From Brevundimonas pondensis (GTDB lineage Bacteria > Pseudomonadota > Alphaproteobacteria > Caulobacterales > Caulobacteraceae): DNA of 64,000 nt. Both the position numbers and the translations under genes were made by a program. How positions within the stretch are numbered: position 1 is the stretch's first letter; every line of letters starts with the position of its first letter. Positions 1-1,837 of the stretch are shown here, in pieces. The DNA lies in NCBI RefSeq assembly GCF_017487345.1, contig NZ_CP062006.1, positions 1,432,001 through 1,496,000 on the forward strand, read 5' to 3'. The notes beneath the pieces are model-generated. The model worked only from the letters and a program-made list of their open reading frames with translations, ran no database searches and had not been told where the DNA came from.

Positions 1-127
1 TGCAGGATTTCAGCGACAACCGGACGCGATTTGTCCTGTTAAGCGCCCCTCAGGGTTGACTGCGCATAGTCTTTGCGCGCTTAAGAGAGGATCGGATCGA
101 CCCTGATCCTGAAACCGGACCGGATTC

Positions 128-229
128 ATGTCCTCGCTGCGCGCACAACTGACCCTTGAAACCACCACGCGCGCGGTGGCCGGCTTTTATTTTGGCTACG
201 GCTATTACGGCTTTCGATACGCCGGCTGA
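128..229 (+). CDS. Putative Phe/Tyr-rich leader peptide (attenuator) of the chorismate mutase gene
   Basis: A 33-codon frame starts with ATG and ends in TGA 135 bases before the chorismate mutase start. Its C-terminal part reads FYFGYGYYGFRY, eight aromatic residues in twelve codons, all Phe or Tyr, the end products made from chorismate through prephenate. The aromatic codons are framed by two copies of the self-complementary hexamer gccggc (179-184 and 221-226) that can pair. A competing hairpin, ccacc 162-166 with ggtgg 175-179, overlaps the first copy. This is the layout expected of ribosome-stalling attenuation, as known for the pheA and trp leaders of proteobacteria. No ideal Shine-Dalgarno sequence is seen. 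A TTGACT at 56-61 could be a -35 element. The function is inferred from composition and position. Confidence 0.6.
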   Translation: MSSLRAQLTLETTTRAVAGFYFGYGYYGFRYAG

Positions 230-364
230 GGCGTCGGGCTTCTAACCAACCCTGACTGTCTCGCTGGCGACCGCTCCTTTCGAGCGGCCCGTGCACGCGT
301 TCCTGCCTGATGTTTCGGCGGACGCGATCTCCCCATCGAAATTCCATGCCGAAAGCCAAATCCC
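230..364 (+). promoter_or_regulatory. Structured 5' leader between leader peptide and chorismate mutase
   Basis: This untranslated stretch can form at least two hairpins. The first is ccgctc 271-276 with gagcgg 282-287, with a 5-base loop. The second is built from cgcg and tcc near 297-304 with gga and cgcg near 329-336. Neither is followed by a T-run, so a classical intrinsic terminator is not evident; control could act through Rho or through access to the ribosome binding site. No other gene is visible in the first 364 bases. Confidence 0.35.
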
Positions 365-1126
365 ATGTCGCAATCCAACATCCAGCAAGTCTGGCCCGCT
401 GAAACCGTCGAGCTGAGCCCCGAGCAGAAGGCGCTGGCCGCCCTGCGCGCCGAGATCGACAGCCTGGATGATCAGATCCTGAACCTGTTCGAGCGCCGTC
501 TCGCCGTCGCCGCCCAGGTCGGCAAGGCCAAGGACGCGCCGACTGGCCCCCACACCAAGCTGCGTCCCGACCGCGAACAGGCCGTTCAGGCCCGCGTCCT
601 GAAGCAGTGCGAACCTGAAAACCGCGAGGCGGTCGAGCACCTGTGGCGCGAGATCGTCGGCTGGGGTCTGGCCCGTCAGGGCCGGCTGCAGGTCCATGTC
701 TGGGCCCCGATCGATCCGGCCAAGGCCGTGGACGGCGCCCGCTTGCGCTTCGGCGCCGCCGCTGACATCAAGCTGGTCCGCGACCCGCAGGCCGCTCTGG
801 CCCATGCCGCCGAAGGCCATGGCGTCTCGGTGCTGTCGATCAATACCGAGGACGCCTGGTGGATGGGTCTGCGTCGCGAATGGTCGATGCTGAGCGTCTT
901 CGACGGCTACGGCGGTGAAACCCCGACCTCGCTGGCCGTGGGCAAGATCGATCCGCCGGCCCTGCCGACGGGGCGTCGCGTGGTGGTGACGGTCGGGGGC
1001 GACGCCGGCGACGGCTCGGGCGCGCGCCGCTGGGGCCTGAACACCAACCACGGCTGGACCCTGGCCCTGACCGACGCCGACGTGGCGCCGGGCGATGTGG
1101 AAGGCTGCGTCGGCGCCATCGGCTGA
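365..1126 (+). CDS. Chorismate mutase (AroQ class) with uncharacterised C-terminal region
   Basis: Predicted to convert chorismate to prephenate, the branch step to phenylalanine and tyrosine. Residues of about 20-95 form an all-helical AroQ-type domain, recognisable from EIDSLDDQILNLFERRLAVA followed by a VGKAK segment and later R and E positions (RPDREQAVQARVLK, HLWREIVG). The remaining 150 residues are not a standard prephenate dehydratase domain: I do not see its TTRF motif. That part resembles nothing I can name, although an ACT- or substrate-binding role is possible. The start follows the aromatic-rich leader peptide at 128-229, which suggests attenuation by Phe/Tyr supply. The next gene lies 69 bases downstream and is unrelated in function. 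Confidence 0.85.
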   Translation: MSQSNIQQVWPAETVELSPEQKALAALRAEIDSLDDQILNLFERRLAVAAQVGKAKDAPTGPHTKLRPDREQAVQARVLKQCEPENREAVEHLWREIVGWGLARQGRLQVHVWAPIDPAKAVDGARLRFGAAADIKLVRDPQAALAHAAEGHGVSVLSINTEDAWWMGLRREWSMLSVFDGYGGETPTSLAVGKIDPPALPTGRRVVVTVGGDAGDGSGARRWGLNTNHGWTLALTDADVAPGDVEGCVGAIG

Positions 1127-1195
1127 TGAAGGTGTGAACGGGCGTTAAGCCTGTTCTTCAACCCTGTCTCAAAAGACTGGGTTCAGCATGACGGC

Positions 1196-1837
1196 ATGAA
1201 CGCTTCCGTCATTCTGCGGCTCGGATCGGTCGGCGCCCTCGCGGCGCTGCTGTCCGGCTGCGGCATGGCGGAGGCCGATCCCCATCGTTTCGAGGGCGTA
1301 GCCAAGAACATCGCGGCCATTCCCCTGTCGACGAAGCCTGAAGCCAGACGTGAGCCCGCCGGGCCGCGCAACGCCGAGGAGGCGGGGCTGAGGCCTTTGA
1401 AGGTCGAGCTTCTGACGCCGCATCAGCTTTGGGACGCCCGTGACGGGCTGACCGCCAAGGCTGCCGCTGTCCTGCCAGCCGTGCCGGCGGTTTTCCATGA
1501 TCCCGAGGCCCCGGCGGACGTGCAGGCTGCGCAGCGGGCTGAGGCTCAGCCGTCGCGTCCCGCCGCAGTCGCGGTCGCTGCTGCGCCTGCCGTTCTGATC
1601 CAACTTGGAGCCTACGCCAGTCAGGCTTCGGCCCAGGCGGCCTGGGAGCGTTTGGGACAGGGGAGCCAAGGCCTGAACCCGGTGTTTGAGCCGGTCGAGG
1701 TCAACGGTCGGCGACTGGTGCGGTTGAAGGTTCGCGCCGGATCGGCTCAGGCTTCGGCGCTTTGCGCCAAGGCGGCGGCGTCCGATCCGTGGTGCGTGCG
1801 GGCCGCAGAGGCGGCGTCGTCCACAGGCGCGGCTTAA
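1196..1837 (+). CDS. SPOR-domain lipoprotein
   Basis: The 213-residue product begins with a signal sequence ending in the lipobox LLSGC (Cys22), so it is probably an outer-membrane-anchored lipoprotein. A linker rich in Ala, Pro and Val leads into a C-terminal SPOR domain starting near residue 120 (VLIQLGAYASQASAQAAWERL and later GRRLVRLKVRAGS). SPOR domains bind denuded septal peptidoglycan, which fits its place directly before mipZ. It could work in septation or cell-wall remodelling. An alternative ATG lies eight bases upstream in another frame. The exact family member is not recognised. Confidence 0.75.
   Translation: MNASVILRLGSVGALAALLSGCGMAEADPHRFEGVAKNIAAIPLSTKPEARREPAGPRNAEEAGLRPLKVELLTPHQLWDARDGLTAKAAAVLPAVPAVFHDPEAPADVQAAQRAEAQPSRPAAVAVAAAPAVLIQLGAYASQASAQAAWERLGQGSQGLNPVFEPVEVNGRRLVRLKVRAGSAQASALCAKAAASDPWCVRAAEAASSTGAA

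Follow-up and report, generated by a model that had tools for sequence, protein, structure and literature searches.

Leaders of the E. coli pheA type in Gammaproteobacteria carry Phe codons, read mainly Phe and use intrinsic terminators. Translational attenuators of the erm and cat type act at a different level and sense drugs: a ribosome stalled on the leader ORF frees a sequestered Shine-Dalgarno sequence. The closest described relative in design of the element presented here is the LEU element, which is predicted upstream of leuA in Actinobacteria (PMC1262725, Seliverstov et al. 2005). Its authors cite mutants against classical attenuation and propose the involvement of a protein (PMC1262725).

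We analysed a stretch of 64,000 nucleotides of Brevundimonas pondensis (called the window below) in which a short Phe/Tyr-rich ORF precedes a chorismate mutase gene. Like the pheA-type leaders, it is rich in codons for an amino acid made by the pathway and precedes a gene of the Phe branch; unlike them, it shows no detectable terminator, contains about as much Tyr as Phe and has the Shine-Dalgarno region as its likely target. In contrast to the erm and cat attenuators, amino-acid supply would be sensed, and the sensing codons would themselves constitute the sequestering strand. The base stem of LEU likewise consists of a codon run paired with the Shine-Dalgarno box of the next gene, an arrangement found here by prediction; LEU contains an internal pseudoknot at the place of which we find two ordinary helices, obtained with folding programs that exclude pseudoknots (PMC1262725). 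LEU concerns leucine codons, leuA and Actinobacteria, and the present element Phe/Tyr codons and chorismate mutase. Since amino acid, gene and phylum differ, the Phe/Tyr element is not a LEU element. No description of a leader before chorismate mutase in Alphaproteobacteria was found by title or start of abstract, a search with subscription papers (e.g. Vitreschak et al. 2004) outside its scope, and the accessible part of the Caulobacter map (PMC4117421) makes no mention of chorismate, phenylalanine or tyrosine.

The leader ORF and its surroundings

The preliminary description of this region had reported a 33-codon ORF with eight Phe or Tyr (F/Y) codons among its last twelve sense codons, directly before a chorismate mutase gene, and both the coordinates and the CM_2 domain of the downstream product bear this out (Table 1). 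The translation reads MSSLRAQLTLETTTRAVAGFYFGYGYYGFRYAG. A chance ORF is ruled out by its F/Y density: stop-free stretches of 12 codons with at least six F/Y occur, over all six frames, at a single place in the 64-kb window (7 overlapping hits among 127,930 stretches, every one inside the leader run), and the chance of at least eight F/Y in such a stretch is 6.7e-9 at the codon usage of the window. The leader ORF thus contains a run of regulatory codons for the pathway product, as in a classical attenuator. The genome, a single contig of 3.55 Mb, yields one match to the element, which excludes a second copy, and a search of plasmids gave none.

Table 1. Features at the leader and the chorismate mutase gene (window positions; helices P0 to P3 and the extra hairpin are predictions)
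Feature	Positions	Strand	Remarks
Prephenate dehydratase gene, 3' end	1..59	+	190 aa, PDT domain only; preceded by a class II DAHP synthase gene
Promoter-like TTGAC box	56..60	+	upstream of the leader ATG
P0, small hairpin	94..109	+	5' untranslated; predicted fold
Leader ORF	128..229	+	33 codons; 8 Phe/Tyr codons in codons 20-31; stop TGA
P1, 5' strand	208..218	+	CGGC-UUUCGAU: end of Y27, G28 F29 R30, start of Y31; putative anti-Shine-Dalgarno strand
P2, 5' strand	220..238	+	holds the leader stop codon
P2, 3' strand	251..269	+	CCUGAC...GUCUCGCUGGCG
P3, hairpin	271..287	+	CCGCUC/GAGCGG
Extra hairpin	296..326	+	follows P3 and precedes the ribosome-binding region; shared by the window and sequences like it, visible as an insertion in alignment A2
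P1, 3' strand, AUCGAAA	335..341	+	most A2 rows keep this block, whereas the sequence around it varies
P1, 3' strand, and Shine-Dalgarno-like GAAAG (351-355) of the chorismate mutase gene	348..357	+	
Chorismate mutase gene	365..1126	+	CM_2 (Pfam PF01817, 59.8 bits against a cut-off of 27); 253 aa

The prephenate dehydratase gene (L205:4487-5059, its end at window position 59) is the sole PDT match of the genome, and PDT is the only domain detected in its product, an ACT domain not being found. The ACT domain of prephenate dehydratase usually carries Phe feedback; the lack of it here may move control onto the RNA leader. The chorismate mutase gene is followed by a SPOR-domain ORF and then by the MipZ gene, and a second CM_2 gene is present elsewhere in the genome. 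The C-terminal part of the chorismate mutase (residues 106-253, about 150 aa) has no Pfam domain.

For comparison, 43 representatives less than 92% identical were chosen; because they are still related, counts over them are not counts of independent events. A candidate promoter box, TTGAC, lies within 130 bases upstream of the leader ATG in 43/43 of them, at -34 to -36 in eight and at about -64 to -80 in the rest, some of which have a second box. A transcript start downstream of position 128, envisaged in the preliminary description, finds no support in this arrangement; in the window the transcript may begin at about 90-95. The arms of P0 vary yet stay paired, by eye and unscored, in many of the 35/43 representatives that are long enough. 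In the other 8/43, with TTGAC about 35 bases from the leader ATG, there is no room for P0, and the leader may begin very near the 5' end of the transcript.

Distribution and evolution of the leader

The leader was found in 78 aligned loci from Brevundimonas and three nearby genera (g57, g61 and g62). These correspond to 75 distinct loci, since three regions are present twice (the identical pairs L149/L088, L150/L087 and L151/L089). Within the genus the enzyme was matched in 117 of 121 genomes, and all 64 named loci with usable upstream DNA carry the leader (a 65th, L092, has 17 bases upstream). Two near-complete genomes (99%) of the genus stand apart: G116 has no match to the enzyme, and G221 has a weak one and none to the RNA model. 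Across the family the enzyme was matched in 179 of 199 genomes. Among 60 chosen upstream regions the leader is present in 13 (eight from Brevundimonas, two from g57, one from g61 and two from g62) and absent from 47, all of other Caulobacteraceae genera. When re-checked, the 47 had nothing on either strand that could encode FR[YRH]AG, a single F/Y-rich place (in L187, in the orientation opposite to that of the gene) and no match to the RNA covariance model R1 better than E 0.037. Leaderless upstream regions include those of L160-L203 (Caulobacteraceae g3 and g4); several of the g4 regions appear by eye to have a common stretch near the start codon, CCTATTGCGCC ... TTCGTTTTCGGGGGA.

At the level of the order, model R1 matched 22 of 249 genomes, all of Brevundimonas, with membership of g57, g61 or g62 uncheckable for 207 of the 249. 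A 21-base pattern allowing up to 3 mismatches had matches in 95 of 348 genomes; the exact ones, among the matches listed, are all in Brevundimonas, and hits outside the genus are by eye no commoner than with a reversed-pattern control. G316, outside the genus, has one place with 1 mismatch. The preliminary description had suggested a range of Caulobacterales. The 47 leaderless loci and the confinement of R1 matches to the genus speak against an element of that breadth, while the conservation that it proposed to examine is indeed seen, the ORF and its F/Y class being kept across the genus and in g57, g61 and g62.

Aromatic density, with no nucleotide pattern, picked up the leader in 68 of 85 distinct upstream regions, the 17 misses being 16 minus-strand loci not turned to the strand of the gene, and L092. 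An RNA-model search of 82 loci gave 75 strong matches (E <1e-6), with 28 weak ones (E >=0.0099) set aside. The leader of L146 was recognised from its sequence, since its ORF runs on upstream.

Leader peptides contain 5-10 F/Y and never W in 78/78 loci, and the last 16 residues of the 43 representatives include 163 Y and 132 F, about equal numbers. Comparison of 36 distinct 33-codon leaders, in pairs up to 25% different, separates three zones. In codons 2-18 the differences are spread evenly over the codon positions (352, 326 and 363 at positions 1, 2 and 3), so that no peptide seems to be kept there. In codons 20-28 the differences are mostly at third positions (79, 106 and 195); the run mostly stays F or Y, with exchanges of one for the other at codons 22, 24, 26 and 27, and codon 20 is Leu in 17 of the 36 leaders. 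Codons 29-33 show zero differences among these 36. The FRYAG end is nearly fixed, FRRAG and FRHAG also occurring in the wider set, and FR is encoded UUU CGA in 78/78 loci despite the rarity of both codons (in the window, 12% of Phe and 5.5% of Arg codons). The pattern that placed FR requires CGA; a looser one with any CGN placed all 65 window and named loci, with TTTCGA throughout, and the FR codons of the 13 other loci were read directly. Drift, then conservation of amino-acid class, then conservation of nucleotides is, as judged from these alignments, what an attenuator leader should show if its end doubles as an RNA strand. A dual Phe/Tyr leader before chorismate mutase, as originally proposed, is well supported by the kept F/Y class, the F/Y exchanges and the constant lack of W.

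It is very improbable that the ORF encodes a small peptide acting in its own right. The nearly fixed FRYAG C-terminus would suit such a peptide, but codons 2-18 evolve with no sign of amino-acid constraint, and conservation of FRYAG reaches third codon positions, as an RNA would predict.

A predicted three-way junction and the ribosome-binding region

Three blocks are kept in the 43-row alignment: UUUCGAUACGCCGGCUGAGG; CCGGCGACCG with its hairpin; and AUCGAAA, present in most rows together with GAAAG near the start codon. We take GAAAG to be the Shine-Dalgarno sequence from its position and the 3' end of 16S rRNA. Folding models suggest that the conserved RNA is a three-way junction of helices P1, P2 and P3. 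RNAalifold on the 43-row alignment detected P2 and P3 and did not detect P1; in ensembles computed for each sequence, starting 12 bases ahead of the motif, the probability exceeds 0.5 for P1 in 40/43, P2 in 42/43 and P3 in 43/43 representatives. In the model of the window (from base 200), 208-218 pairs with 335-341 and 348-351. P3 has three pairs with changes on both sides (types UA, CG, GC and AU), and in distant members such as L154 and L157 the strands of upper P2 differ yet by eye still pair. The helix covariation score, taken on alignment A5, itself fitted to the model structure, is 0.186 against 0.123 in shuffled data (0/500), and slid partners reach at most 0.064. P1 and the base of P2 prove little by covariation because they are almost invariant.

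These helices differ from the competing hairpins of the preliminary description and lie partly downstream of the F/Y run. The earlier hairpins are rejected, as they are not conserved across the 43 representatives: a GCCGGC block, to which pairing around the aromatic codons had been attributed, occurs within five codons before the first aromatic codon in 10/43, and a CACC...GGTG hairpin similar to that at 162-179 in 5/43.

A junction core nearly invariant in nucleotides, including the single A linkers between helices, raises another reading, namely that the junction is a ligand- or protein-binding RNA hiding the Shine-Dalgarno sequence and that the aromatic codons arise mainly as a side effect of the complementarity required. 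The persistence of the core in L155 (g57), which has no predicted sequestration, would also fit this reading. We nevertheless consider it improbable: the aromatic run reaches beyond the strongly conserved paired bases, mostly retains F or Y by exchanging one for the other, changes mostly at third positions and stays in frame, and no known RNA family matches. Rfam 15 gave no match at gathering scores for the 64-kb window, neither a T-box nor any other family being recognised by its covariance model, and none up to E 5 for positions 1-500.

Sequestration of the start region was compared with controls in which shuffling was confined to the sequence separating P3 from the start codon (40 shuffles per sequence). 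Over the 43 representatives the mean predicted pairing of the leader with the ribosome-binding site (RBS) is 0.84, against 0.41 in shuffles, and that of the Shine-Dalgarno sequence with the leader 0.60, against 0.15; the real sequence falls at or beyond the 5% level of its own shuffles in 31/43 and 28/43, respectively. The Shine-Dalgarno sequence is predicted to pair with the leader at a probability above 0.5 in 33/43.

An intrinsic terminator with a U tract before the structural gene, a feature of classical attenuators, was not found in window positions 1-1300, in agreement with the remark of the preliminary description that a clear one was lacking, and 2/43 representatives have TTTT in the interval from P3 to 25 bases before the gene; attenuation by an intrinsic terminator is rejected on these grounds. 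It is also unlikely that the same leader acts mainly on transcription, with Rho terminating downstream of P3, ahead of the gene, except when a stalled ribosome or the P2 fold stands in the way. The leader is of a type typical of attenuators, and by eye the sequence following P3 is variable and appears rich in C, as this would suppose; against it stand the same terminator and TTTT results and the position of the AUCGAAA...GAAAGCC block at the ribosome-binding region, which fits sequestration.

Stalling was modelled in two ways. In a ribosome-edge scan the openness of the Shine-Dalgarno sequence rises from a mean of 0.38 to 0.56 (median 0.33 to 0.59), the step corresponding to the covering of the GGC before UUU. 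In a single-codon model, with the codon in the A site, the edge assumed 13 bases ahead and an opening threshold of 0.15, stalls at F/Y codons would open the site in 35/43 leaders and at 164 of 320 F/Y codons; stalls before the F/Y run leave it unchanged (mean 0.32 against a base of 0.33). For the window, modelled stalls at F20, Y21 and F22 keep the site mostly closed (0.32-0.33), and those at Y26, Y27, F29 and Y31 give an openness of 0.61-0.67. On these values, full starvation at the first aromatic codon would not induce. In the model the site is also opened by a ribosome resting on the stop codon (mean 0.56). Because the early codons lie too far upstream and termination itself exposes the site, the element may tune expression to dwell time instead of acting as a switch, or control of transcription may join in.

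Several representatives depart from this picture. In 8/43 (L062, L065, L069, L073, L081, L093, L147 and L148) none of the F/Y stalls raises openness by more than 0.15, and Shine-Dalgarno pairing is weak in L057 and L069. In L145-L148 and L155 the pairing of GGCUUUCGAU with the RBS is no better than in shuffles. In the divergent L145-L147 the start region reads CCGAGA, and its partner in the minimum-energy fold is UAUUUCGG, within the aromatic run; such a change of register would preserve the principle; openness with the full leader is 0.40, 0.53 and 0.64 in L145, L146 and L147, and the shifted register of L147 is weak, its site being already 0.64 open. Sequestration is not predicted in L148 and L155 (g57), though FRYAG, P2 and P3 persist; P2 is weak in L155 (0.33). 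In L155 and L156, both g57, the leader continues for six further codons after FRYAG and ends at TAG; UUUCGAUACGCCGG is retained, and both loci match the RNA model. As g57, of which L155 was the one locus folded, retains the RNA core with no predicted pairing to the enzyme start region, the conserved core may serve a further role.

Proposed mechanism and significance

Comparison of the sequences establishes the conservation of the leader, its codon classes, P2 and P3 and the complementarity to the start region. From the folding models we infer sequestration and release of the Shine-Dalgarno region, and we regard the element as probably a translational attenuator, mediated by the ribosome, in which Phe and Tyr are sensed jointly. 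As long as charged tRNAs are plentiful, the ribosome would complete the leader at the UGA inside P2 and depart, and the vacated mRNA would fold into the three-way junction P1-P2-P3. Its closing helix P1 would pair the leader codons ...UAC GGC UUU CGA U... with AUCGAAA and GAAAGCC before the start codon, and chorismate mutase would be little translated while P1 is closed. If Phe- or Tyr-tRNA were short, a ribosome dwelling on the later aromatic codons would hide the 5' strand of P1, leaving the Shine-Dalgarno region open and allowing more chorismate mutase to be made. Stalling on these later codons would free the enzyme start because the sensing codons double as the anti-Shine-Dalgarno strand. 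Of the attenuation logic first proposed for this locus, the dual Phe/Tyr leader is retained; among mechanisms, sequestration of the Shine-Dalgarno region appears from the models to be better supported than an attenuator of the terminator type. The more specific proposal, that the hungry codons are the anti-Shine-Dalgarno nucleotides themselves, within a three-way junction, and that pooled sensing of Phe and Tyr gates the first enzyme of their common branch, seems to us plausible on balance.

If correct, this reading would define, together with the predicted LEU element, a class of terminator-free attenuators in which a codon run covers the start of its own gene, and such attenuators would have arisen independently in Alphaproteobacteria. 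Leaders of this kind are easily missed, as many attenuator searches start from terminators. A clean genus-wide case with a defined fold would make testable the question left open by LEU, whether ribosome stalling on amino-acid codons can directly control translation initiation. In Brevundimonas pondensis, where no ACT domain is seen in the sole prephenate dehydratase, the leader would provide a point of control over Phe and Tyr.
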